From positions 1 to 47,249 of the IMG/VR virus record IMGVR_UViG_3300032116_022059: 47,249 nucleotides of DNA; one strand, written 5' to 3'. Below the pieces are notes generated by a model, which saw only the letters and a program-made list of their open reading frames with translations, did no database searches and had not been told where the DNA came from. Positions 1 to 17,713 of the stretch are shown one piece after another. Position numbers and translations under genes: made by a program. Numbering within the stretch: the first letter of the stretch is position 1; each line of letters starts with the position of its first letter. Origin of the DNA: a virus.

Positions 1-275
1 TGGCGTTTCAGTCGGTGTTTCAGTCGGTGTTTCAGTCAGTGTAGCTGTTGGCGTTTCAGTCGGTGTTTCAGTCGGTGTTTCAGTCGGTGTAGCTGTTGGC
101 GTTTCAGTCGGTGTTTCAGTCGGTGTTTCAGTCAGTGTAGCTGTTGGCGTTTCAGTCGGTGTTTCAGTCGGTGTTTCAGTCGGTGTAGCTGTTGGCGTTT
201 CAGTCGGTGTAGCTGTTGGAGTTTCAGTCGGTGTTTCAGTCGGTGTAGCTGTTGGTGTAGCTGTTGGTAAAATAA
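1..275 (-). repeat. Nested 12/48/96-bp tandem repeat encoding TPTE/TPTA
   Basis: The basic unit is 12 bp, read on the minus strand as Thr-Pro-Thr-Glu or Thr-Ala-Thr-Pro/Leu. Four units make a 48-bp block, and blocks begin at 1, 49, 97 and 145. Alternate blocks differ by CAG/CGG in the last unit (Leu versus Pro), giving a 96-bp super-period. The array decays towards 193-275 and continues beyond the left edge. All copies are in frame with the host gene, so it is a coding repeat. Confidence 0.95.
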
Positions 276-2157
276 TTACACAATCTGGACAATCGAAATT
301 TAATAACCCAAATTTGTTTTTTAACAATAAAAAATTATGCTTAATCTCATCACCACCTAAAGCAGACGTATACATCCTGAATTGAGATATGGCCCCATCA
401 AAAGAACCTCCGAAGTTTTGTTCTAATAATATATTCGTAGATAACCCAGATAGTGTTGTACCACTTAGTATATTATTTGGAAAGCATTCTGGGTCTTGCT
501 GATATGTAACCCCACTTAATGTTGCAGGGCAACCAGTAAATGTCAGGTTATCATGTAACCCTTGTGTGCCACCGCCCCATGATACATTAAATGGAACTCC
601 TACTTGTCGTTCTTTTTCGGTGCTTAAACCTCTAGGTATAATTTCTTCAACATCTTCAAATGTCTCAAAAAGCCTACCATTAACGTAAATTTTTAATTTA
701 CCCCTTCTGTATTTATTCTCTTGTAACCAATTTTCGTTTAATTCAACTATTTCTAGCTTTTTGGCAACTTCTTGACCATTTGTTATCGGCGGACCAATTA
801 ATTCTACAGTTTTACCCAGTTCTGATAACAGATATGGATTACGAGTAATAATATCTAAACCACCTCGGTATTTTAGATCGCATTCATCGAACCACGTATA
901 TCTTTCCCAAATAAAATTAAGTAAAACCCAATGTTCTCTTAATATGAAATTAGGATCTTCAGTTGCACAAATATCATATATAGATTTTTCTGTGCAATAA
1001 TTTTGTATTGTATATCCTGTTTGATATGTTATTCCTGTTGTTTCGCAAGATCCTGTGGTAACACAATCACCTGTAAATCGCAAAATCCTAACACATATTT
1101 TAGGATTACCTGGATCACCAGAAAATTTAAAAGAAATTGCATTAGATATACTATCTAATAACGGATCTTTCTCAGGTGAAATTGAGGTTTGTGCTGTTAT
1201 ATTGCAACCACAATCACAATTTACACCATGCGAACTGATTTCATCCGCTGGTTGATATACAGATATACAATTAGAATTTGTTATCCCGGTATCAGAACAA
1301 GCACATGTTTTTAAACATGTTAATGCCTCAGTAACTCTAGTATATCCTGTGTCGCCGGTAGGGTTTAGGTTAGCGTAATGATAATATTTATTCTCAGCCC
1401 TAGCACCTAAATAAAAAAATGTGTTTTTATTATTAGGATACACTTGATTTAGTGTTGTAAATCCAGAAGGTGGTGTATATAAATCAACTAACCTAGGCTT
1501 TAACAAAAGTTCAACAGTCCAGCCTTTATGTACTCTTTCCGGGAATATTTCATAATCATAACTGAACAACTTATAAAATCCCTGGTAAAATCCCCCATAT
1601 AATTCATGGTATATACCAACAGTTGGATCATTGTATGATACTACTTCATATGCTATATTATAATTTAATCCTGAAAACCTTAAATTAGGGCTTAACGTGT
1701 GGCCAGTAACTTGATGCAATTTTAGTCTGCGATCAAAAGATAACCTGTCAAATTTCTCAGAATCTGGTAGTAAGCCTTTAGTTATACTAATCGTAACCCC
1801 AGTCATTTGATCAACTAATCCATTATCAATGCCGGTTAATCCAATATCACATATTGTTGTGGCTGAATTGCAGGAAACGTCGTAATTATCTGGATTATAA
1901 TAATTTAAAGATATTAAATTATTATATTCGTTATACTCACCATAATCTAAAATATATTGTTCACTAGTTCCAGAACTATTTAAATCAAAATGTATTGGTA
2001 ATTTATTGCCATCATCAACGGAAATAATATTATCTGAGAATATTACCTCTTGGTTTATAGCCTCGTAATTATCTAACAGAGTAAAATCAAGAGTTTTGTT
2101 TACGCCATTTAGATACCAATTCCTAAAATTAAATTGATTTATATTTATATACGACAT
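1..2157 (-). CDS. Large LamG-like tail-fibre/adhesin protein with Thr-Pro repeat tail (partial)
   Basis: The frame opens at ATG 2157 and is still open at the left edge after 719 codons, so the C-terminus is missing. Residues about 480-620 look like a laminin-G/concanavalin-like lectin domain: a [10 protein letters not shown] strand, an FNVSWGGG loop and a closing [15 protein letters not shown] strand. From about residue 630 the protein becomes an in-frame (TPTE/TPTA)n tail. The N-terminal two thirds have no family I recognise. LamG-like folds are common in virion adhesins and fibres, so a surface or receptor-binding role is inferred. It diverges from the virion-gene run on the plus strand, with 54 bases between the two starts. 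A tail or neck structural protein is the main alternative. Confidence 0.8.
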
Positions 2158-2211
2158 ATATGTAATAAATACAACATAACTCAATATTTATTAGTGATAA
2201 TACTATGATAT

Positions 2212-7285: not shown

Positions 7286-7978
7286 ATGATTACTATAGTA
7301 TATTCGACACACAAAGATACTCAGTTTAATTCTAAATTCAGGAAACATTTAGAAAAGACAGTTGGATTAGACAATGTTCAAATCCTTGAATACCAAAACA
7401 ACAATGAGTTTTCATTAGCTCAAATATATAATAGAGGTATTTCTGAGTCAAAACATGATGTAGTAGTCTGCTGTCATAACGATGTTTACTTTAGTGACAA
7501 ATGGGGTATAATGCTGTTGAATGATTTTAGAGAAAACCAAGATTTTGCTATAATAGGTAAGGCAGGATCTTGGTTTTTCCCTAGATCTGGAATCTACTGG
7601 GAAGAAATGTCACGTACTATGGTAGGACAAGTATACCACCATCCAAAAGGTAAAGTGAGGTGGTTAAGCAAATATTCGGAAAAAAAAGATAAATTAATAC
7701 CTGTTGTTACAATAGACGGATTATTTATATCGTTCGATAAAAGAAAAATAAAACATATGTTTGACGAAAACATTGGAAGGTTTCACTTTTATGACCATCT
7801 ATTTTGTGTCCCAAACTATCTAGAGGGTTTAAAAATTGGTGTTACATCGTCATTTGACATTACTCACGAATCGATAGGTAGACCAAATGACGAATTTTTT
7901 TCAACTAAAGAGTTATTTGTTAATAAGTATATAAATTACCTACCTATAGATATTAATAATTTATCAAATGAAAAATGA
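7286..7978 (+). CDS. GT-A glycosyltransferase-like protein (Glyco_tranf_2_5 type)
   Basis: The 230-residue product begins with a MITIVYSTHKD strand, followed by FSLAQIYNRGISESKHDVVV and a CCHNDVYF segment (a DxD-like nucleotide-sugar site). It later has VVTIDGLFISFDK and FHFYDHLFC, all typical of the small GT2-related family often found in phages and capsule loci. It probably transfers a sugar from a nucleotide donor. The specificity is unknown. Its 3' end overlaps the next glycosyltransferase by 11 bases. Confidence 0.75.
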   Translation: MITIVYSTHKDTQFNSKFRKHLEKTVGLDNVQILEYQNNNEFSLAQIYNRGISESKHDVVVCCHNDVYFSDKWGIMLLNDFRENQDFAIIGKAGSWFFPRSGIYWEEMSRTMVGQVYHHPKGKVRWLSKYSEKKDKLIPVVTIDGLFISFDKRKIKHMFDENIGRFHFYDHLFCVPNYLEGLKIGVTSSFDITHESIGRPNDEFFSTKELFVNKYINYLPIDINNLSNEK

Positions 7979-8528
7979 AATAACCTTTATAATACCTTCG
8001 GTCAATAGACCAACACTTGATAGTAGTGTTAATTCATTACTTGGGCAAACTAATCCAAATTGGAAATGTATTATCATTTATGATGGTGTTAGTGGAAAGA
8101 CTTATGATGATAATAGAATTCAAGTTATTAATTCTGAAAAAATAGGATTGTTTGGTGAGAGAAATGGACAATCGGGATTAGTTAGGAATAAAGGATTAGG
8201 TTTAGCTAAAACAGAGTGGGTAGGGTTCCTTGATGACGATGATACATTACACCCTGATTACACAAAACTTTTGTTTGAAAAATATTATAATTATGATTTC
8301 GTAATATGGAAAATGAAATATCCTAATGGATTAGTTCTTCCCGTATTGTATGATAACCCAATTAGATTTGGTAATGTCGGAATATCATTTTCATTTAAAA
8401 ATAAATATTCTGGGTTATTTTTTGATTCAAATAGAGATGGTGAGGATTATGATTTTATTCTAAAACTTAAAAATAAAACAGAAAACTATACAGTTTCAGA
8501 TGAAATTGCCTATTTTATTAGGCACTAA
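7968..8528 (+). CDS. Family 2 glycosyltransferase
   Basis: The 186-residue GT-A enzyme opens with the classic ITFIIPSVNRP strand and has SLLGQTNPNWKCIIIYDG, then VGFLDDDDTLHPDYTKLL, which holds the DxD metal/nucleotide-sugar site. It is shorter than typical GT2 enzymes (about 250-300 residues) but the nucleotide-binding half is complete. No membrane helices are visible, so it should act as a soluble or peripherally bound enzyme. It overlaps the upstream gene by 11 bases. Confidence 0.85.
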   Translation: MKNEITFIIPSVNRPTLDSSVNSLLGQTNPNWKCIIIYDGVSGKTYDDNRIQVINSEKIGLFGERNGQSGLVRNKGLGLAKTEWVGFLDDDDTLHPDYTKLLFEKYYNYDFVIWKMKYPNGLVLPVLYDNPIRFGNVGISFSFKNKYSGLFFDSNRDGEDYDFILKLKNKTENYTVSDEIAYFIRH

Positions 8529-8537
8529 TATAAAATT

Positions 8538-9167
8538 ATGCAAAAATTATTTGATAAATTTGATAAAGTTTTTTGTATAAACTTACCACATAGAACAGAT
8601 CGTCGAGAAAGCTTTATCTCGGAGGTAAATAAGTATGATTTGGGTAATTTTGAATTTTTTGACGCATATTACGGGCAAAAACTACCAAATCCTCACAATA
8701 TATTACCAGGAAATGTCGGCCTAATAAAAACAAATATCGAAATTTTAAAAAAAGCAATTGATGACAATTTAAACAATATTGTCATAATTGAAGACGACTG
8801 TGTTTTTACTGATGAAATATTAAATATTGATTCTTACTTTGAAAAACTTCCGGAAAAATGGGATATGCTGTATTTTGGTGGGAATCATAATTATCACTGG
8901 CATGGTGTACCAAACCCTATTATTGTAAATGAAAAAGTACTAAAATTAGTGCATAGTTTTACAACTCACTTTATTATAATTAATAAAAATATGTTCAGTG
9001 TATTAATAGAAAAATTGTCATCCTACTCTCACCCGATTGATGTAATATACGCGGAAATTCAAAAAAATTATGACGTGTATTCTTTTTATCCTTCAATTGC
9101 AAAGCAGTCTACAGGCTACAGCGATATAGAGAATAGAGAAATAAATTATGATTTTTTAATAAAATGA
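8538..9167 (+). CDS. Family 25 (LPS-type) glycosyltransferase
   Basis: The 209-residue product has the GT25 signature VFCINLPHRTDRR (about 11-23), an FFDAYYG segment, and IVIIEDDCVF (81-90) containing the acidic donor site. GT25 enzymes add galactose or similar sugars in lipooligosaccharide and in collagen-like protein glycosylation. It overlaps the next gene by four bases (ATGA). Acceptor unknown: phage protein, host LPS and phage glycan are all possible. Confidence 0.88.
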   Translation: MQKLFDKFDKVFCINLPHRTDRRESFISEVNKYDLGNFEFFDAYYGQKLPNPHNILPGNVGLIKTNIEILKKAIDDNLNNIVIIEDDCVFTDEILNIDSYFEKLPEKWDMLYFGGNHNYHWHGVPNPIIVNEKVLKLVHSFTTHFIIINKNMFSVLIEKLSSYSHPIDVIYAEIQKNYDVYSFYPSIAKQSTGYSDIENREINYDFLIK

Positions 9168-9973
9168 ATAAATTAAATATTGTTGATAACGTTTTTCGTC
9201 ACTCTGAGCTAGGCTATTGTAGTGATTTTCAACAATCAGAACTATTTGAATGGAATAGGCAAAATATTGATCACTTGCATGATATTCCGATAGTTTACAC
9301 AGATAACTCATACCATTTGGCTATAAACAATGAAATATCATATGCTTGGTTAATTGAACCATTTGAAATAAACGGCTCAATATATGAAAATATCTTAACG
9401 ATAAGACACAATTTTAAAAAAATTTTTACGCATGAAAAAATTTTGTTAGATTTAGGCCCACCATTTGAATTTATCCCTTTTGGTGGGTGCTGGATAAAGC
9501 CTGAAGATCAAAGAGTATATAATAAAACAAAAAATATTAGCATAATTGCCTCAAATAAAAATTATACTACAGGCCATAAATTTAGGCAAGATGTTATTAA
9601 ACAATTTTCGGATAAAATGGACGTCTATGGCATTGGCCATAATTTTATAAACTATAAATTAGATGGGCTAAGAGACTATAAATTCTCAATCGTAATTGAG
9701 AATTGTAAACGAGATTATTGGTTTACTGAAAAATTAATTGATTGTTTTATGACTGGCACAATCCCGATATATTGGGGGTGCCCATCTATTGGTGATTTTT
9801 TTGATTTAAATGGAATCTTATTATTTGACAATATTAATGATCTACATAACATAATTTCAAATATTGATGAGAAGTTATATTTAAATAAGCTAGAATTTAT
9901 ATCTAAAAATTTTGATATAGGAAAGAAATATCTGTTACCCGATGATTATCTTTATAATAAAATAAAAACTTAA
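9164..9973 (+). CDS. Family 10 fucosyltransferase-like glycosyltransferase
   Basis: The 269-residue product carries the GT10 C-terminal domain: YKFSIVIEN (172-180), FTEK (187-190) and GTIPIYWGCP (198-207). These are the GDP-fucose-binding elements of alpha-1,3/4-fucosyltransferases. The N-terminal 120 residues are divergent. GT10 members use GDP-L-fucose or related GDP-sugars, matching the Gmd and Fcl-type genes about 4-6 kb downstream in the same run. The regiospecificity is not predictable. Confidence 0.85.
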   Translation: MNKLNIVDNVFRHSELGYCSDFQQSELFEWNRQNIDHLHDIPIVYTDNSYHLAINNEISYAWLIEPFEINGSIYENILTIRHNFKKIFTHEKILLDLGPPFEFIPFGGCWIKPEDQRVYNKTKNISIIASNKNYTTGHKFRQDVIKQFSDKMDVYGIGHNFINYKLDGLRDYKFSIVIENCKRDYWFTEKLIDCFMTGTIPIYWGCPSIGDFFDLNGILLFDNINDLHNIISNIDEKLYLNKLEFISKNFDIGKKYLLPDDYLYNKIKT

Positions 9974-9976
9974 TAT

Positions 9977-10672
9977 ATGTCAAATTATTTAACTGAATTA
10001 GCAAATAAATATGCCTCAGATAAAGGAACAATAGCTCCGGAGACAGGGCATCATGGCCCCAGATTAGGGTATACAGAAATATATCACAAATATTTTGAGC
10101 CCTTAAGAAATTTAGATATTAATATACTAGAAATTGGTATAGGTGGGGGCCCTAGTTTAAAAATGTGGGAAGATTATTTTCATAAAGCTAGGATAGTCGC
10201 GTTTGATATAAACTCATATTCTTATTTGGATAATGATAGGGTGAAGACAATGATCGTCGATCAGTCAGATCGGACTTCATTACTTAATGCTATGAATAAT
10301 TTATCGATGGAATTTGATATAATAATAGACGATGGATCACATGTATGTGAACACCAACAAATATCACTAGGAGTCCTATTCAAATTTTTAAAAAATAAAG
10401 GCCAATATTGGGTAGAAGATCTACAAACTAGCGATGTTGATGTCTGGAATCAAACGACAACTTTGTATGGTTATAATATGGGTAACAATGTTGGTAATAA
10501 AAATACTGTTGAGGTATTTGAAAATTATGGTGATAACAAAAAATTTCTTAGTGAGTTTTTAACTGCTGACGAAAATTTATATTTAACGGAAAATATTGAT
10601 GAATATAAATTATATAGATTAGGTAAAACGTTTTACGGGGAAACTAAATTAGCATTTTTCTTAAAAAAATAA
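9977..10672 (+). CDS. Class I SAM-dependent methyltransferase (sugar O-methyltransferase-like)
   Basis: The 231-residue product has the SAM-binding loop EIGIGGG (52-58), an acidic AFDIN strand end and the post-motif IIIDDGSH. The N-terminal LANKYASDKGT and LGYTEIYHKYF segments are typical of a family that includes macrolide-sugar and cephalosporin/rhamnosyl O-methyltransferases. Lying between a fucosyltransferase and an epimerase, it most likely methylates a sugar hydroxyl, which is an inference. A protein or small-molecule target cannot be excluded. Confidence 0.8.
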   Translation: MSNYLTELANKYASDKGTIAPETGHHGPRLGYTEIYHKYFEPLRNLDINILEIGIGGGPSLKMWEDYFHKARIVAFDINSYSYLDNDRVKTMIVDQSDRTSLLNAMNNLSMEFDIIIDDGSHVCEHQQISLGVLFKFLKNKGQYWVEDLQTSDVDVWNQTTTLYGYNMGNNVGNKNTVEVFENYGDNKKFLSEFLTADENLYLTENIDEYKLYRLGKTFYGETKLAFFLKK

Positions 10673-10676
10673 AATA

Positions 10677-11525
10677 ATGGATATTTTAATAACCGGTTAT
10701 AAGGGCTTTATCGGAAGTAATATTTACAAGGCTCTAAAGCCTTATCATAATGTGTTCGGACTAGAAAAAGAAGATAGCGTAGATTCATTGATTAAAAAAG
10801 ATTACGACATTGTAATACACTGTGGTGCTTTAGCTCGTACCGCCGAGTGCAATTTAATATTTGATGCTCACAATTTAAATGTTATGACAACACTAGATCT
10901 ATTGAAAGATCTTTTTTTTAAAAAATTTATATACATCTCAAGTTGTGCAATATACGGTAGTTCAAGTGCTGTTATAACTGAAAACACATATACTAATCCT
11001 CCGAGTGTTTACGCAGCACAGAAATTATATTCTGAACACATTGTAAATTATTATGGGCTTTTAAATGATGTATCAACGATTAGTTTGAGATTGTTTAACG
11101 TATACGGGCCAGGGCAGTCTCAATTAGGTCAATACCCTAATGTTATTGCCTCACTTTGTAGATCTATATTAAATAATAATTATGCTGAGGTTACAGGAGA
11201 TGGATCACAAGTTAGAGATTTCGTTCATGTTAGTGATGTTGTTGAAGCGATAAAATTGTGTGTAAACCATTATTTTGCATCAGGAAACTACATTTATAAT
11301 GTTTGCACTAACGTTGGTACTAGTGTACATGACGTTGCAAAATATTTGACTGATAGCACAAATAATTCTTCACAGATAAAATTTATTGAGCCGAGACAGT
11401 TTGACTTGTATAAACAAATAGGATCCTTCGATAAAATTAAAAATGAACTAGGTTGGCAACCTGCAATAAATATAATCGATGGGTTAACAGATTTAGTTAA
11501 TAAAGAACTCTTAATAAAATATTAA
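10677..11525 (+). CDS. NAD-dependent sugar epimerase/dehydratase (extended SDR)
   Basis: The 282-residue product has an NAD-binding GYKGFIG loop (7-13), an SSCAIYG segment and the catalytic pair Tyr112/Lys116 (YAAQK), followed by LRLFNVYGPGQ and the substrate-side RDFVHVSDV. These define an extended SDR acting on a nucleotide-sugar, such as a UDP-hexose 4-epimerase or 4,6-dehydratase. The exact reaction cannot be assigned. It is one of four SDR genes in the island. Confidence 0.85.
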   Translation: MDILITGYKGFIGSNIYKALKPYHNVFGLEKEDSVDSLIKKDYDIVIHCGALARTAECNLIFDAHNLNVMTTLDLLKDLFFKKFIYISSCAIYGSSSAVITENTYTNPPSVYAAQKLYSEHIVNYYGLLNDVSTISLRLFNVYGPGQSQLGQYPNVIASLCRSILNNNYAEVTGDGSQVRDFVHVSDVVEAIKLCVNHYFASGNYIYNVCTNVGTSVHDVAKYLTDSTNNSSQIKFIEPRQFDLYKQIGSFDKIKNELGWQPAINIIDGLTDLVNKELLIKY

Positions 11526-11528
11526 ATT

Positions 11529-12296
11529 ATGGTAAGTTTTAATTATTACCATCCAGTACATGAGAACCAAAAATTAGATTTTAATAAAGTTCATATGGAT
11601 GGTGGATTATCTAAGGTTATTAACACAACAAAAAATATTGAAGAAGCTACGCATATTCTAATGTTAGATATACCCATGTTTTCTAATTATGAATTAGAAT
11701 TGTTAAAAACAAACAGTTTAAATGGTAAAAAAATTGTCGCTATGACTTTTGACCCATATAATTTTCTTAGATTAGAATCATATATTAATATGGGCATAGT
11801 TCACGCTGTAGTGGTTTTTGATAAAAAATTTAGTGATAGGTTTAAAGTTCCTACAATAGTTTCAGACTACTTCTTCAATGAAGATGTGTTTCCGACAAAT
11901 AATATTGATTATAGTAATAATGTTTGTATATTTGGTCATCTATCTTTAAATAGAATTAATAATTTTAAGTTAGATAAAGTCGATAAGGATGTTAACTCTT
12001 ACGAAGAGTTATATTCAAAAGTTAAACAATACAATGGTGTCGCAGTATATGATACGGGATATAACGAACATGGGACAGAAGTAGTTACGTACAATAAAGC
12101 TAAAGCAGTCGAAACATTAATGTGTGGTAGGATACCTTATTGTAAATCAGGAATAAATACAATCAACTATAACGATTTTATAAAAACCTATGATGAAATT
12201 TTAGTTCCTAGTAAAGTTCACTTTAAACAAAGTGATATTTTTGAAATAAATAAAAAAGTTTTAAATGACATAAAAATAAACATAAATCAAATTTAA
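11529..12296 (+). CDS. Putative glycosyltransferase-like protein, family unassigned
   Basis: The 255-residue product shows alternating alpha/beta strands (THILMLDI, KKIVAMTFD, AVVVFD) and a C-terminal segment with AVETLMCGRIPYCKSG. This resembles the donor-binding region of GT-B enzymes, where an E-x-M/L-x-CG-x-P pattern is common. No N-terminal signature is clear, and I cannot place it in a numbered GT family. It lies between two SDR genes in the island. A non-catalytic sugar-binding role is the alternative. Confidence 0.55.
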   Translation: MVSFNYYHPVHENQKLDFNKVHMDGGLSKVINTTKNIEEATHILMLDIPMFSNYELELLKTNSLNGKKIVAMTFDPYNFLRLESYINMGIVHAVVVFDKKFSDRFKVPTIVSDYFFNEDVFPTNNIDYSNNVCIFGHLSLNRINNFKLDKVDKDVNSYEELYSKVKQYNGVAVYDTGYNEHGTEVVTYNKAKAVETLMCGRIPYCKSGINTINYNDFIKTYDEILVPSKVHFKQSDIFEINKKVLNDIKININQI

Positions 12297-12301
12297 TTAA
12301 A

Positions 12302-13186
12302 ATGAAAAAAATATTAGTAACAGGTGGTGCGGGATTTATTGGTAGCCATGTTGTTGATGAATTAGTAAATCAGGGTCACACCGTTTATGCCGCTGACAGA
12401 AACTTGGAATGGGCTAAAAACAGTAAAGCAATTTATCATCCATTAGACATATTAAATTATACCCGTGTTGATCAATTGTTTGAAACAATAAGACCTGATG
12501 TCACAATACATTTAGCAGGAATTTTAGGTACCTCTGAAACATGGAATCATGTACAAGAATGCGTTGATTCAAATATTACTGGGGCAATAAATGTTTATGA
12601 AGCCTGTGCAAAATATAAAAGTGACATCCTAACTGTTGATGTTGGTTCTAGATGGTTGGCACCATATACGATATCTAAAAGAACTGGGGCGGAATTTGCG
12701 TTTGCTTATGGGAATAAATACGGAATTAAGGCAGGTGCGTTAAGAATTTTTAACGTATACGGGCCAAGACAAGGTACTAAAATTATAAAAATTATACCCA
12801 AATTCATTGAAAACGCGCTAAAAGGCGTTAATTTAGAAGTTTGGGGTAATAAGAATGCTGATCTTGTACATGTTAAAGATGTCGCCAGAGCATTCGCATC
12901 CGCAGTAAATAATCTAGAAAAAATAGATCAAAACGATAACGTGTTTATTGGCTCTGGCGAAATAATGACTGTTGGTGAAGTTGCAGATCTTATTGTTAAA
13001 AAAATAGGTAAAGGCACTGTTGTACATATGAAACCAAGAGTTGGAGAAGAAAAAGCAGAAGCCGGGTTTATGAATAATAATGTTGCTTTTGAACTATTAG
13101 GGTGGAAGCCAGAAATAAATTTAGAAGATGGATTGAACGAATGTATAGAGTGGTACAAAAAAATATTTGGATATATTAAAAATTAA
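12302..13186 (+). CDS. NAD-dependent sugar epimerase/dehydratase (extended SDR)
   Basis: The 294-residue product has the GGAGFIG cofactor loop (8-14), HLAGILGTSETW, the YTISK catalytic motif (Tyr122/Lys126) and RIFNVYGPRQG, then DLVHVKDVARA. It is an extended SDR acting on a nucleotide-sugar. The Ser of the usual Ser-Tyr-Lys triad is not in its common S-S-x-x-V/A-Y-G context but in VDVGSRW, so its chemistry may differ from GalE-type enzymes. It shares one base with the next ATG (TAATG). Confidence 0.85.
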   Translation: MKKILVTGGAGFIGSHVVDELVNQGHTVYAADRNLEWAKNSKAIYHPLDILNYTRVDQLFETIRPDVTIHLAGILGTSETWNHVQECVDSNITGAINVYEACAKYKSDILTVDVGSRWLAPYTISKRTGAEFAFAYGNKYGIKAGALRIFNVYGPRQGTKIIKIIPKFIENALKGVNLEVWGNKNADLVHVKDVARAFASAVNNLEKIDQNDNVFIGSGEIMTVGEVADLIVKKIGKGTVVHMKPRVGEEKAEAGFMNNNVAFELLGWKPEINLEDGLNECIEWYKKIFGYIKN

Positions 13187-13962
13187 TGATATCATCAATT
13201 TTAAAAGGTGGCCTTGGAAATTATCTATTTCAAATCTCTGCTGGATATTCCAAGGCCATAGATTTAGGTACAAGATTTGTTATTAACCCAAATTATGTAC
13301 AACAAGTACATAATCCATTATCCAGTTATTTATCAAATATTTTAAGTAAAATAATTATTGATAAAAATTATTTTTTTAAGTCAAAATACCATGAATTAAA
13401 TTTTGAATATAAAGAGATCCCAAATCTAAATTCATTATCAATAATTGATGGATATTTTCAATCTGAAAAATATTTTATTCATAACAAGACAAAAATTTTA
13501 GAATTATTTGAATGTCCAAATGAGATAAAATACGACTTAAATAATAGATTTTCAAAAATTTTAGCAGAAAATACTTGTTCAATACATGTACGTAGGGGAA
13601 ATTATTTAACTATGCCAGAATTTCATCCTTCTCAAGATATTTCTTTTTATAAAGAAAGCGTATCGTTAATGGTTAAAAATACTCATTTTCTAGTTTTTTC
13701 TGATGATGTTGAATGGTGCGTAAATAATTTCGATTTTATTGAAAAAAAGACATTCATTAGGAATGAAAAAGATTATGAAGACTTGTATCTGATGTCAATG
13801 TGCAATAATAATATAATAGCAAACTCAACATTTAGCTGGTGGGGGGCCTGGCTAAATAAAAATCAAGACAAAATTGTTATAGCACCTAAAACTTGGTTTG
13901 GTTCTAATTATTCACATTTAGGAACAAAAGATTTATATTGTGATGGTTGGAAAATAATTTAG
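13186..13962 (+). CDS. Family 11 alpha-1,2-fucosyl/colitosyl-transferase
   Basis: The 258-residue product is a clear GT11 enzyme: GGLGN (8-12), YFQSEKYF (90-97), the HVRRGNY loop (134-140) that binds the GDP-sugar, and a C-terminal NSTFSWWGAWL motif. GT11 enzymes transfer L-fucose from GDP-fucose. The colitosyltransferases of E. coli O55-type O-antigen loci belong to the same family. It begins the four-gene GDP-sugar cassette whose later genes make the donor. It starts in a TAATG overlap with the preceding SDR gene. Confidence 0.92.
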   Translation: MISSILKGGLGNYLFQISAGYSKAIDLGTRFVINPNYVQQVHNPLSSYLSNILSKIIIDKNYFFKSKYHELNFEYKEIPNLNSLSIIDGYFQSEKYFIHNKTKILELFECPNEIKYDLNNRFSKILAENTCSIHVRRGNYLTMPEFHPSQDISFYKESVSLMVKNTHFLVFSDDVEWCVNNFDFIEKKTFIRNEKDYEDLYLMSMCNNNIIANSTFSWWGAWLNKNQDKIVIAPKTWFGSNYSHLGTKDLYCDGWKII

Positions 13963-13965
13963 CAT

Positions 13966-14880
13966 ATGAAATATAAAAATATTGTTGTTACAGGAGGGTC
14001 TGGAATGGTGGGTAAATCACTAAGCCGAATTCTAAAAAATGGCATTTTTTTGTCATCAAAAGACTACGATCTAACATTAGATTCTGATGTTAATAAAATG
14101 TTTTGTGATCTAAAGCCAGACGTAATAATACATTTAGCGGCAAAAGTTGGGGGCATTATTGATAACATCAATAAACCGTATGATTATTTTTCAGAAAATG
14201 TGCTGATGAATACATTATTACTTGAGCATTCAAGAATTAATAATGTTAAACGGTTTATAGGTATTTTAAGTACTTGCATATATCCTGACGTTGTATCCAG
14301 ATACCCTATGACTGAAGATATGTTACATATTGGCCCTCCAACGAGGACAAACTTTTCGTATGGATACGCTAAAAGATGTTTAGCTGTACAAATTGACGCT
14401 TGTAATAAGCAATATGGTACTAAATATCAATATTTGATACCATCTAATTTATATGGGGAAAATGACAAATTTGGTGATAACAGCCATTTTGTTGCAGCTC
14501 TTTTAGAAAAAGTTTTTGATTTAATAAAAAATAACAAAAAAACTTTAAAATTATATGGAACAGGTTCGCCTATGAGGCAATTTATGCATTCAGATGATTT
14601 AGCTTGGGTTATCTATAAATGTCTTGAAGAAGAAATATATGAAAGTTTTAATGTTTCTACTGAGGAAAATTTGAGTATTAAAGAAATAGCAACAATTCTT
14701 TTAGATATTGCAAATTTAAATGATGTCGAATTAATCTTCGATGATAAAAAACCGGATGGTCAATATAGAAAAGATGTTTCAATTTCAAAATTGAAAGAAT
14801 ATATTCCCAACTTTACACCACTAAAATTAAAAGAAGGTTTAAAAATAGTTTATGATAAAATTAGTGAGCGATACTATTGA
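13966..14880 (+). CDS. fcl: GDP-L-fucose synthase family reductase-epimerase (Fcl or ColC type)
   Basis: The 304-residue product aligns with GDP-4-keto-6-deoxymannose epimerase/reductase: GGSGMVG (10-16), AAKVGGI (58-64), STCIYP (102-107) holding the catalytic Ser and Cys, YGYAK (Tyr132/Lys136), LIPSNLYG, and an NSH motif matching the catalytic His. Fcl makes GDP-L-fucose. The closely related ColC makes GDP-L-colitose from the ColD product. The gene is followed immediately, with a 29-base overlap, by a ColD-like gene and then gmd, so either product or both is possible. Confidence 0.88.
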   Translation: MKYKNIVVTGGSGMVGKSLSRILKNGIFLSSKDYDLTLDSDVNKMFCDLKPDVIIHLAAKVGGIIDNINKPYDYFSENVLMNTLLLEHSRINNVKRFIGILSTCIYPDVVSRYPMTEDMLHIGPPTRTNFSYGYAKRCLAVQIDACNKQYGTKYQYLIPSNLYGENDKFGDNSHFVAALLEKVFDLIKNNKKTLKLYGTGSPMRQFMHSDDLAWVIYKCLEEEIYESFNVSTEENLSIKEIATILLDIANLNDVELIFDDKKPDGQYRKDVSISKLKEYIPNFTPLKLKEGLKIVYDKISERYY

Positions 14881-16003
14881 TCGAAAAGATATTAAAAAAC
14901 TAATAAAATGGTTATCTCAAAAAGAGATACCAAAATTAACAAAAGGTAATTTAACCTGGGAATTAGAAAAAAAATGGGCTAAAAAAATTGGTAGTAAATA
15001 CTCTGTATTTGTTAATTCTGGCTCATCATCAATATTATTAACTTTAGCGGCATTAAAAGTTAGTGGTAGGCTAAAAAATAACAAGATTGTGGTACCAGCT
15101 CTAAGTTGGGCGACGGATGTTAGTTCTCCTATTCTTCTAGGCTACGAAACGATACTTTGCGATTGTAACTTATCTGATTTATCCTGTGATATTAATCATC
15201 TAGAAAAATTATTTAATGAACATAATCCTTCGACACTAATCTTAGTTTCACCATTAGGTTTAGTCCCTAATATGGATGTTGTGACCGAATTATGCAAAAA
15301 ATATGACGTAATATTACTTGAGGATGTTTGTGAAAGTATGGGATCTAAATTTAGAGACAAATACTTAGGCACGTTTGGATTCGCTTCGTTTTTTTCAATG
15401 TATTATGGCCATCATCTTTCAACTATTGAAGGGGGATTCATTAATACTGACGATGAGGACTTTTATTATCAATTATTGATGATGAGAAGTCACGGTTGGG
15501 ATAGAGACTTGCCTAAACAAAAACAGCAGGAACTTAGAGCTAAATACAACTGTAGTGATTTTGAGGCACTATATAATTTCTACTTACCTGGGTTAAATGT
15601 TAGATCTACAGATCTTCAAGCTTTTATTGGTATTGGAGCTATAGACAAATTAGACAAGTACACGATGAAAAGAAACCGTAACTTTAAACTATATCAGAAA
15701 AATTTAACTAATACTGAGCTAAAATTAAAAATTAGTGACTTAAATTTTATTTCTAGTTTTGCAATGCCGGTTTTGGCTAAAAATAGAGACTCAATTGTTA
15801 ATAACTTACTAAAAAATAATATTGAAGTTCGGCCATTGATCGCAGGTAATATGGGTAGAAAGCCTATGTGGAAAGGTAAAAATGATGATTTACCTAATTG
15901 TGATTTAATCGATAAAAATGGTTTTTATGTTCCAAACCATCAAGACTTAACTAAAGAGGAAATATTGCTCATAACGAAAATAATTAATACAACATCACAA
16001 TGA
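14852..16003 (+). CDS. colD: ColD-like PLP-dependent GDP-4-keto-6-deoxymannose 3-dehydratase
   Basis: The 383-residue product belongs to the DegT/DnrJ/StrS PLP fold, but the Schiff-base lysine is replaced by histidine: YYGHHLSTIEGG puts His187-His188 at that site. This is the hallmark of ColD, which uses PLP and glutamate to remove the C3 hydroxyl of GDP-4-keto-6-deoxymannose. Other ColD-like stretches, recalled not aligned, are LLEDVCESMG, RSHGWDRDLPK, LPGLNVRS and IEVRPLIAGN. Length matches E. coli ColD (about 388). No [2Fe-2S] cysteine tail like that of E1/RfbH is evident. It overlaps fcl by 29 bases and gmd by four. Confidence 0.85.
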   Translation: MIKLVSDTIDRKDIKKLIKWLSQKEIPKLTKGNLTWELEKKWAKKIGSKYSVFVNSGSSSILLTLAALKVSGRLKNNKIVVPALSWATDVSSPILLGYETILCDCNLSDLSCDINHLEKLFNEHNPSTLILVSPLGLVPNMDVVTELCKKYDVILLEDVCESMGSKFRDKYLGTFGFASFFSMYYGHHLSTIEGGFINTDDEDFYYQLLMMRSHGWDRDLPKQKQQELRAKYNCSDFEALYNFYLPGLNVRSTDLQAFIGIGAIDKLDKYTMKRNRNFKLYQKNLTNTELKLKISDLNFISSFAMPVLAKNRDSIVNNLLKNNIEVRPLIAGNMGRKPMWKGKNDDLPNCDLIDKNGFYVPNHQDLTKEEILLITKIINTTSQ

Positions 16004-16980
16004 AAAAAGCATTAATTACAGGCATTAATGGTCAAGACGGATCTTATCTGGCAGAATTTTTACTAAGTCAAAATTATGAAGTGCATGGCACCTTAAAACG
16101 TAATTCGGTATCTGAAAATCAAACATCCCGGCTTGATAATATATTCAACAATGTAAAATTACATTATGCCGATGTAACCGATCTGTCTTCAGTATTAAAT
16201 GTGATAGATAAAATAGAGCCAGACGAGATATATAATTTAGCGGCACAATCCCACGTTAGAATATCATTTGATCAACCAATATATACATCAAATGTTACTG
16301 GATTAGGCACATTAAACGTTCTTGAAGCTATTAAACTAATTAATAAAGATATTAAATTATACCAAGCATCATCATCAGAAATGTTTGGTAATAATATTGA
16401 TGATGATGGATACCAAAGAGAAACAACTCCAATGAATCCAGTTTCACCTTATGGATGTGCAAAAGTTTTCTCGTATAATATTACTAGAAATTATAGAAAT
16501 TCATATAATATGTTCATTTCTAACGGTATATTATTTAACCATGAATCACCTAGACGGGGATCTAATTTTGTTACTAATAAAGTTTGTAAAGAGGCTGTAA
16601 AGATTAGTTTGGGGTTATCTAATGAATTGCGTATAGGCAATTTAGATGCTAGTCGTGACTGGGGCCATGCTAAAGATTATGTTAAAGCCATGTGGTTAAT
16701 TATGCAGTTAGAAAGGCCAGATGATTTTGTATGCGCAACAGGTGTATCACACACAGTTAAAGATCTTTGTAAATATGTGTTTGATTATCTTAATCTAAAT
16801 TATATTGACTATATAAAACAAGATGAAAAGTATTTCAGGCCTGAAGAACTTAAAGATTTAAAAGGTGATGCCTCAAAATTAATTATGGCAACTAATTGGG
16901 GCCCAAAATACACATTTGAAACCATGTTACAAGAAATGATCGAGTTTTGGTTAGGTCATTATAAAACTAATAATAATTAA
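16000..16980 (+). CDS. gmd: GDP-mannose 4,6-dehydratase
   Basis: The 326-residue product has the Gmd signature: NADP loop GINGQDG (8-14), GTLKRNS, NLAAQSHVRISF, the catalytic SSSE (124-127) and YGCAK (Tyr151/Lys155), then NHESPRRG and NLDASRDWGHAKDYV. It converts GDP-D-mannose to GDP-4-keto-6-deoxy-D-mannose, the shared precursor of GDP-L-fucose and GDP-L-colitose. It is a little shorter than bacterial Gmd (about 345-370). It overlaps colD by four bases. No GDP-mannose-forming gene is seen here, so host GDP-mannose is presumably used. Confidence 0.95.
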   Translation: MKKALITGINGQDGSYLAEFLLSQNYEVHGTLKRNSVSENQTSRLDNIFNNVKLHYADVTDLSSVLNVIDKIEPDEIYNLAAQSHVRISFDQPIYTSNVTGLGTLNVLEAIKLINKDIKLYQASSSEMFGNNIDDDGYQRETTPMNPVSPYGCAKVFSYNITRNYRNSYNMFISNGILFNHESPRRGSNFVTNKVCKEAVKISLGLSNELRIGNLDASRDWGHAKDYVKAMWLIMQLERPDDFVCATGVSHTVKDLCKYVFDYLNLNYIDYIKQDEKYFRPEELKDLKGDASKLIMATNWGPKYTFETMLQEMIEFWLGHYKTNNN

Positions 16981-16981
16981 A

Positions 16982-17713
16982 ATGTCAGGAAAGAAAATTA
17001 AGTCGCCCACAAATCAAGAGGAAGAAAGTAAAACTTATCTAACTAAAAAAGATTTAATATCACAAATAATAAAGAAAAAAACCAAAGAAAAGTTTTTAAG
17101 TGAATCGCAAAGAACTTATTATGAAACATTGGTGACTAACCAGATAACAATATGTTCTGGCCCGGCAGGTGTAGGTAAAAGTTATATAAAAATGAAAGCC
17201 GCTATCGATTTATTGGCGGATAAAAATAATAGTTATGAAAAGATAATAATCGTTAGACCCGCAGTTGAAGCCGAAGAAAAATTGGGCAGCTTACCTGGGG
17301 GTGTTGAAGAAAAACTGGATCCTTATATTTTTCCATCTTATTATTTGTTAAATAAAATTATAGGTAAAGAAGCTAGAGAAAAATTAAAAGAAATTGAAGC
17401 TATTGAAATATTTGCGTTAGCGTATATGCGAGGGATGAATATTGATAATTCAATTTTAATTTTTGAGGAAGCTCAAAATTCTACACCCAGCCAAATGAAA
17501 CTTTTGTTAACGAGGATAGGCTTTAATAGTAAATTTTTTATATCCGGGGATCTAGAACAAACGGATAGATATAAAGATAAAACACAAAGTGGACTATGGG
17601 ACGCAATAAATAAATTTTCTAATATAGACGATATCGGCATATTCGTATTCGGAGATACTGATGTTGTTAGAAATCCAATTATCAGTAAAATTTTAAATAA
17701 ATACACAGAATAA
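16982..17713 (+). CDS. phoH: PhoH-like ATPase
   Basis: The 243-residue product carries a Walker A GPAGVGKS (60-67), IIIVRPAVEAEEKLGSLPGG, a Walker B with ILIFEEAQN, and ISGDLEQTD, the PhoH pattern. PhoH-like proteins are P-loop ATPases very common in marine phages, possibly involved in RNA or phosphate-stress metabolism, but their function in phages is not settled. The N-terminal 40 residues are a Lys-rich extension. It starts one base after gmd in the same run. Confidence 0.92.
   Translation: MSGKKIKSPTNQEEESKTYLTKKDLISQIIKKKTKEKFLSESQRTYYETLVTNQITICSGPAGVGKSYIKMKAAIDLLADKNNSYEKIIIVRPAVEAEEKLGSLPGGVEEKLDPYIFPSYYLLNKIIGKEAREKLKEIEAIEIFALAYMRGMNIDNSILIFEEAQNSTPSQMKLLLTRIGFNSKFFISGDLEQTDRYKDKTQSGLWDAINKFSNIDDIGIFVFGDTDVVRNPIISKILNKYTE

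Follow-up and report, generated by a model that had tools for sequence, protein, structure and literature searches.

Phage genes for nucleotide sugars are known up to GDP-fucose. In cyanophage S-SCSM1 these comprise Gmd, an Fcl-type reductase and fucosyltransferases; no 3-dehydratase is named and neither 'aminotransferase' nor 'colitose' occurs in the part of the text available (PMC9602691). A viral reductase giving a GDP-rhamnose branch is described from vent viromes (PMC5513705), giant viruses have sugars such as viosamine, with 'colitose' absent from the accessible text of the review (PMC9614988), and a paper from the literature on colitose and phage is, in its available part, about lambda lysogens (PMC7084815). 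A full GDP-dideoxysugar route would extend this repertoire to sugars so far known from bacterial O-antigens. Here we describe such a candidate route in the virus record IMGVR_UViG_3300032116_022059 (47,249 bases, the whole stretch being called the window), where a plus-strand operon probably encodes a complete pathway from GDP-mannose to GDP-L-colitose together with a transferase. A preliminary description of this DNA had called such a pathway in a phage unusual. We found no report of a phage-encoded colitose route in the literature searched (colitose or dideoxyhexose with phage, cyanophage, jumbo phage and viral metagenomes; open-licence papers and partial lists, and so no proof of absence), but the gene set itself is common and also occurs in Synechococcus phages. 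The proposed colitose branch is an addition to phage nucleotide-sugar cassettes that is common and not singular.

The Escherichia coli O111 cluster (NC_013364, in which the genes are unnamed and we assigned ColC and ColD by position and by the ColD and WbdK structures) has the same three enzyme types, Gmd, ColC and ColD, and the ColD active-site residues in common with the window, at identities of ~34% (ColD), 30% (ColC) and 44% (Gmd). Its ColD and ColC genes are adjacent with a 4 nt overlap and are part of an O-antigen cluster that also holds phosphomannomutase, mannose-1-phosphate guanylyltransferase, wzx and wzy, whereas those of the window lie in a phage glycan cluster and its reductase falls on another branch than O111 ColC. 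Synechococcus phages ACG-2014f and S-CAM7 (Kyanoviridae) carry Gmd, a GDP-fucose-synthetase type, a ColD with two adjacent histidines (HH type) and a GT11 type in a row, but their ColD is ~31% identical to that of the window, their gene order is another and their annotation is generic (aminotransferase, hypothetical protein or CDP-4-keto-6-deoxy-D-glucose-3-dehydrase). As sequenced cyanophages, both make the idea testable on isolates. The CDP-4-keto-6-deoxyglucose 3-dehydrase E1/RfbH (3bcx) is a His-type 3-dehydratase of the same fold, but it has a [2Fe-2S] cysteine motif and its own clade, and the window protein has neither.

Gene content of the operon

The operon reads GT11, Fcl-type reductase, DegT-family protein and Gmd on the plus strand, phoH being the next gene, with the following sugar genes.

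13186..13962, plus strand: GT11-family glycosyltransferase, probable colitosyl- or fucosyltransferase (PF01531, E 2.2e-27; PHROG 2644, glycosyltransferase)
13966..14880, plus strand: GDP-fucose-synthase-type epimerase/reductase, proposed ColC role (GDP-L-colitose synthase), from structure relatives, residues and linkage
14852..16003, plus strand: ColD-type GDP-4-keto-6-deoxymannose 3-dehydratase, His187 replacing the Schiff-base lysine, from structure relatives, tree, residues and model
16000..16980, plus strand: Gmd, GDP-mannose 4,6-dehydratase (PF16363, E 2.7e-115; best solved Gmd, E 2.3e-99)

These are the four open reading frames (ORFs) and families (PF01531, Fcl-type, PF01041 and Gmd) of the preliminary description, and the observation is real and its earlier reading correct in substance. 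The genes are consecutive as described, but only two of the three junctions overlap, reductase/ColD by 29 nt and ColD/Gmd by 4 nt, whereas a gap of 3 nt separates GT11 from the reductase. The GT11 protein matches PF01531 at 96.5 bits (gathering cut-off 23.9), and several further viral loci likewise have a GT11 relative close to ColD. Gmd scores 385.8 bits against the Pfam model GDP_Man_Dehyd (cut-off 27) and 398 bits over positions 1-337 of 342 against TIGR01472, just under that model's equivalog cut-off of 415.

The ColD-type protein

The pyridoxal phosphate (PLP) protein encoded at 14852..16003 belongs to PF01041 (DegT, E 7.5e-54) and has the aspartate-aminotransferase-type fold, and its best solved relatives are the E. 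coli ColD structures (2gms, E 4.4e-59), ahead of perosamine synthase (8.1e-28) and E1 (3.1e-25). The lysine is absent and a histidine stands in its place, as had been noted; however, the residue that aligns to E. coli ColD His188 is His187, and position 188, named earlier, is a second histidine that is kept in most relatives. The His187 equivalent is invariant in an alignment of 53 sequences, all preselected as His-type. Trp86, His214, Arg218 and Arg251 of the window protein correspond to ColD Trp88, His215, Arg219 and Arg250, which we take to line the ColD active site, whereas E1 has Phe, Trp, Cys and Lys. The [2Fe-2S] cysteines of E1 are missing, with one of the eight cysteines in the E1 stretch in common (window Cys160), likewise in E. 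coli ColD, and the E1/RfbH model NF011936 gives 166.8 bits against a cut-off of 423.

Using a quick LG+G4 tree with Shimodaira-Hasegawa-like approximate likelihood ratio (SH-aLRT) support and no bootstrap, we placed the protein among 135 sequences, rows >75% identical having been dropped and E. coli O111 ColD, E1 (3bcx), Caulobacter perosamine synthase (3bn1) and phage aminotransferases serving as references. Some long branches were flagged in this tree, E. coli ColD among them. Fifteen Lys-type rows split from 120 His-type rows (SH-aLRT 99), nine E1-type rows form one group with the window outside it (97), and the window lies inside a ColD group of 111 rows (98), in a subset of 47 rows that consists of 45 other viral sequences, one 4.6 kb metagenome-assembled genome (MAG) contig and the window. 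Clustering with aminotransferases had been named as the outcome that would speak against a ColD-type 3-dehydratase in a Gmd/Fcl-type cassette; the protein groups with ColD. An E1-type enzyme was considered and excluded by the missing iron-sulphur cysteines and by the tree.

The structure comparison proposed earlier likewise favoured ColD. An AlphaFold model (mean predicted local distance difference test score, pLDDT, 94.3) has ColD 3b8x as its best match (Z 45.5, rmsd 2.2, 366 aligned), followed by E1 (42.7) and perosamine synthase (42.1), although many aminotransferases score only 3 to 6 Z below ColD and the fold alone therefore cannot decide function. Third codon positions in ColD have diverged by 0.50-0.52, against 0.11-0.34 at first and second positions, in six comparisons; since this is so and many separate viral contigs show the three-enzyme block again, the cassette is not a product of chance. 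We consider it very likely that the protein is a ColD-type 3-dehydratase, with C3 deoxygenation itself being a prediction.

The reductase and its linkage to ColD

Human GDP-fucose synthase is the best solved relative of the reductase (E 2.7e-58), and fold comparison agrees. Ser102, Cys104, Tyr132, Lys136 and His174 correspond to E. coli Fcl S107, C109, Y136, K140 and H179; going by E. coli GDP-fucose synthase work, we assume that Ser-Tyr-Lys serves reduction and that Cys-His is the C5 epimerase pair. In a reductase tree of 106 rows from 146 (13 unlabelled reductases and rows >85% identical being left out) there are three main viral groups, clades I, II and III. Clade I is that of the window: its 44 rows include one Acidobacteria MAG row and a contig with a reductase identical to that of the window (L002). 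All 44 retain every one of the S, C, Y, K, N and H residues, and the clade has typical positions such as Phe175, Asp270 and Asn229. The Ser-Tyr-Lys and Cys-His residues are equally complete in the other reductase clades. A His-type dehydratase lies beside all 44 rows of clade I, 11/11 of clade II and 6/14 of clade III, and human GDP-fucose synthase falls together with clades II and III (SH-aLRT-style support 95).

Because most rows of this tree were found via ColD, linkage was recounted from reductase and Gmd anchors. The best 80 matches were retained in each scan (cellular ColD, viral ColD profile, Gmd-anchored and reductase-anchored); the patterns of the viral and cellular ColD profile scans include the HH motif, which biases His counts there, whereas the anchored scans use other genes. 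The reductase-anchored sample (80 loci, 16 duplicates, 64 distinct, 17 without 3 kb flanks) left 47 loci, every one with a His-type dehydratase (43 HH, 4 HT) and 43 with Gmd. From the Gmd-anchored sample (80 loci, 19 duplicates, 61 distinct, 11 without flanks) 50 were used, and reductases of clades I and II stood beside a His-type dehydratase in 22/22 loci, 20 of these being ColD and two E1-type, compared with 3/14 for clade III (Fisher p 6e-7, uncorrected for kinship). Fourteen Gmd-anchored loci had no reductase nearby, two of them with ColD. Counted from ColD, 73 distinct viral loci with flanks have a same-strand reductase in 63 cases, Gmd in 63, both in 57 and a tight reductase-ColD-Gmd block in 33. 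Family membership, active-site residues and linkage are established by these sequence and structure comparisons.

Six ColD relatives (L288, L289, L290, L294, L208 and L233) are of HT type, with the catalytic first histidine kept and threonine as the second. In L202 and L273 a clade I reductase and Gmd occur with an E1-type enzyme nearby, as if 3-dehydratases had been swapped. Gmd was without a nearby reductase or His-type dehydratase in 12/50 Gmd-anchored loci (L204, L205, L206, L209, L211, L215, L232, L235, L237, L250, L251 and L264), one of which has a Lys-type enzyme.

Colitose, fucose or another product

The best-surviving alternative is that the cassette mainly makes GDP-L-fucose through Gmd and Fcl, with the ColD-like protein diverting part of the flow or serving another substrate, so that fucose and colitose are both made and GT11 and GT10 use fucose. 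We regard this as unlikely. It has in its favour that the reductase has a GDP-fucose-synthase fold with the human enzyme as nearest relative, that the catalytic residues checked are common to E. coli Fcl, human GDP-fucose synthase and O111 ColC, and that phage GDP-fucose cassettes are described, as for S-SCSM1 (PMC9602691, in the portion available). However, the clade of the window's reductase was never seen without a His-type dehydratase in the 47 reductase-anchored loci with flanks, and most Gmd-bearing clade III relatives (11/14) are without one. Clade III phages share with S-SCSM1 a phage-borne Gmd, an Fcl-type reductase and fucosyltransferases, and differ from the window in that 11/14 of their loci have no 3-dehydratase nearby.

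Several results weigh against a colitose product. The PLP protein is only ~34% identical to E. coli ColD, and the modelled loop 186-188 that holds both its histidines has a pLDDT <50, which is low confidence. The reductase is equidistant from E. coli O111 ColC (30.0%) and E. coli K-12 Fcl (29.7%), its best NCBIfam match is the GDP-fucose synthase model NF047922 at 196.7 bits, below the equivalog cut-off of 500, and in the tree it shows no kinship with the branch of O111 ColC, which groups with L104 and L076. ColD-linked clade II has closer kin in clade III and human GDP-fucose synthase than in clade I, bacterial reductases encoded near ColD are found next to E. coli Fcl as well, and a residue-by-residue search returned no position common to clades I and II and O111 ColC yet absent from Fcl. 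Two of the 22 clade I/II Gmd-anchored loci hold an E1-type and not a ColD-type enzyme, and in 16/73 viral ColD loci with flanks one or both same-strand partners are absent nearby. Given the position of clade II and of the bacterial ColD-linked reductases, linkage alone is no proof of reductase specificity, and the latter placement beside Fcl means that the family as a whole may accept both keto substrates; with no residue common to clade I, clade II and E. coli ColC, we claim no ColC specificity motif. The choice between Fcl and ColC that the preliminary description had posed therefore tilts towards ColC through linkage to the His-type dehydratase, not through kinship with O111 ColC, sequence similarity alone being undecided.

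A different GDP-3,6-dideoxy sugar, in which C4 is reduced without C5 inversion to give a D-configured 3,6-dideoxyhexose, appears quite improbable: some proteins that share the fold, the Campylobacter heptose reductases, carry the name of C4 reductases and sequence cannot tell stereochemistry, but the presumed epimerase pair Cys104 and His174 is invariant in clade I (44/44). A perosamine-type aminotransferase despite the missing lysine has next to no probability and was excluded by the His-for-Lys residue and the tree, for although it would be of the same Pfam family (PF01041) and perosamine synthase acts on the same substrate (PMC5513705, in its available part), Lys-type rows (perosamine synthase and nine viral) split from His-type rows (the window and 56 viral) and the Trp88 and His215 equivalents are ColD-like, unlike perosamine synthase.

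Proposed route

In the colitose pathway that we favour, Gmd would convert host GDP-mannose into GDP-4-keto-6-deoxymannose. The ColD-type enzyme, charged to the pyridoxamine phosphate (PMP) form by glutamate and with His187 as base, would then remove the C3 hydroxyl and release the 4-keto-3,6-dideoxy sugar, following the ColD mechanism and family definition in the available part of a review (PMC8987622). In the ColC role, the reductase would invert C5 via Cys104/His174 and reduce C4 with NADPH via Ser102/Tyr132/Lys136 to yield GDP-L-colitose, the activated form of the rare surface sugar colitose. GT11, or the upstream GT10, could then attach this sugar to a glycan that the adjacent transferases assemble. 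The acceptor would perhaps be a host surface glycan or a virion protein, and the phage might benefit from a decorated virion or from a change in the host surface that, for instance, wards off superinfection.

GDP-mannose should be supplied by the host, as the ManC model TIGR01479 was above its cut-off in 0/20 related virus records (3/20 with weak partial matches) and the phosphomannomutase domain PF02878 was found in 0/20, although these records, 15 with a His-type ORF in the locus and five without, may be incomplete. Phage adsorption and antigenicity can hinge on surface sugars of this kind, so that a phage with a colitose supply of its own could alter the surface of its host or shield its particles. 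Many related environmental phages hold this gene set, and it is therefore probable that phages produce and exchange dideoxy sugars on their own.

Distribution and a candidate exchange site

Searching viral sequences with the window ColD alone yielded 20 loci at 54-100% identity, with HH in 19/19 long enough to show the motif, and a profile scan found at least 593 viral stretches encoding ColD relatives. The viral ColD sample of 100 loci contained 84 distinct ColD (83 HH and one partial without the motif), 58 being used for linkage. Among the best 80 bacterial relatives none was >50% identical save one of 59% on the 4.6 kb MAG contig; 58 of these 80 cellular loci were used, the motif pattern failed in four cellular rows, and both partners were present in 19/58 loci with flanks. 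One 592 kb Acidobacteria MAG contig (L037) carries a clade I reductase (52%), Gmd (68%) and ColD (47%) near the viral ones, and a terminase search of this bacterial genome, which has the closest cellular reductase, gave no match.

Within 5 kb downstream of Gmd, phoH is present in 36/50 Gmd-anchored loci: 17/27 with a His-type dehydratase, 9/11 with a clade III reductase alone and 10/12 with neither. That phoH follows Gmd whatever the module suggests exchange of modules at one phoH-adjacent site, while the remaining transferase genes around the block differ from phage to phage. We tentatively propose, at not quite even likelihood, a large T4-like phage lineage with a sugar-switch site, in which whole modules would be swapped beside a well conserved Gmd, and often phoH, such that phages differ in the displayed sugar. 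Its modules would be Gmd alone, Gmd with a fucose-type reductase, Gmd with ColD and a reductase clade seen only alongside a 3-dehydratase, and an iron-sulphur E1-type dehydratase. If so, the sugar on the infected cell or on the phage itself would vary, like phage-encoded serotypes. Related phages with a fucose-type or a colitose-type module at the same place offer a natural comparison.

Phages also encode dehydratases of the E1/RfbH type, marked by a CxC..C motif that is [2Fe-2S]-like (L024:5833-7128, L025:15478-16779, L202:6023, L269:6022, L273:6779, L156:1430 and L163:198); in the 642 kb phage LR756502 (L025) such an E1-type gene occurs together with one of ColD type. In L009, L011 and L014, the colitose block is followed at ~10125-12262 by a second, divergent His-type dehydratase (HV for HH), which has a dehydratase-like gene of its own beside it; no cysteine motif was found in the L009 enzyme.

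Surrounding genes and phage identity

The stretch at 4.7-21 kb is rich in glycan genes on the plus strand, with GT2, GT25, GT10 and GT11 transferases, two further epimerases and additional GT1-clan or GT2 matches that are weak and below cut-off. Features outside the block are listed below.

1-2184, minus strand: incomplete ORF cut by the contig end; it encodes a long Thr-Pro-Thr-Glu repeat, from 4.9 copies of a 48-base tandem repeat
7286..9167, plus strand: GT2-type (7286, 7968) and GT25 (8538) transferases of the cluster (Pfam above cut-off)
9164..9973, plus strand: GT10-family (fucosyltransferase-type) glycosyltransferase, second candidate for sugar transfer (PF00852, E 4.9e-07, 30 bits, cut-off 23.9)
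10677..11525, plus strand: further nucleotide-sugar epimerase, GalE-like (PF01370; TIGR01179 116.6 bits, under the cut-off of 262.3)
12302..13186, plus strand: second nucleotide-sugar epimerase/dehydratase in the cluster (PF01370/PF16363)
16982..17713, plus strand: PhoH-like ATPase gene, often found to the right of the block (PF02562, E 4.8e-62)

The Thr/Pro repeat of the structural-type gene (1-250) was considered as a sugar acceptor; its pattern has six matches within the window and is present in 0/30 related records, and for this reason the gene was dropped. A Pfam search of seven further window proteins gave no match.

The window carries head and packaging genes of PHROGs 138, 207, 213 and 2 (major head protein, protease, portal and terminase), which we take to be the gp23-, gp21-, gp20- and gp17-type genes, and these bear out the earlier assignment to a T4-like phage. 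As they share the contig and the gene set recurs in large phage records, contamination by host DNA was rejected. PHROG 138 was found in 18/20 related records (one at E 1.4e-5 only) against 0/14 control genomes, and the best matches of the window terminase in the phage collection, which include Flavobacterium, Microcystis and Synechococcus phages, are <29% identical.

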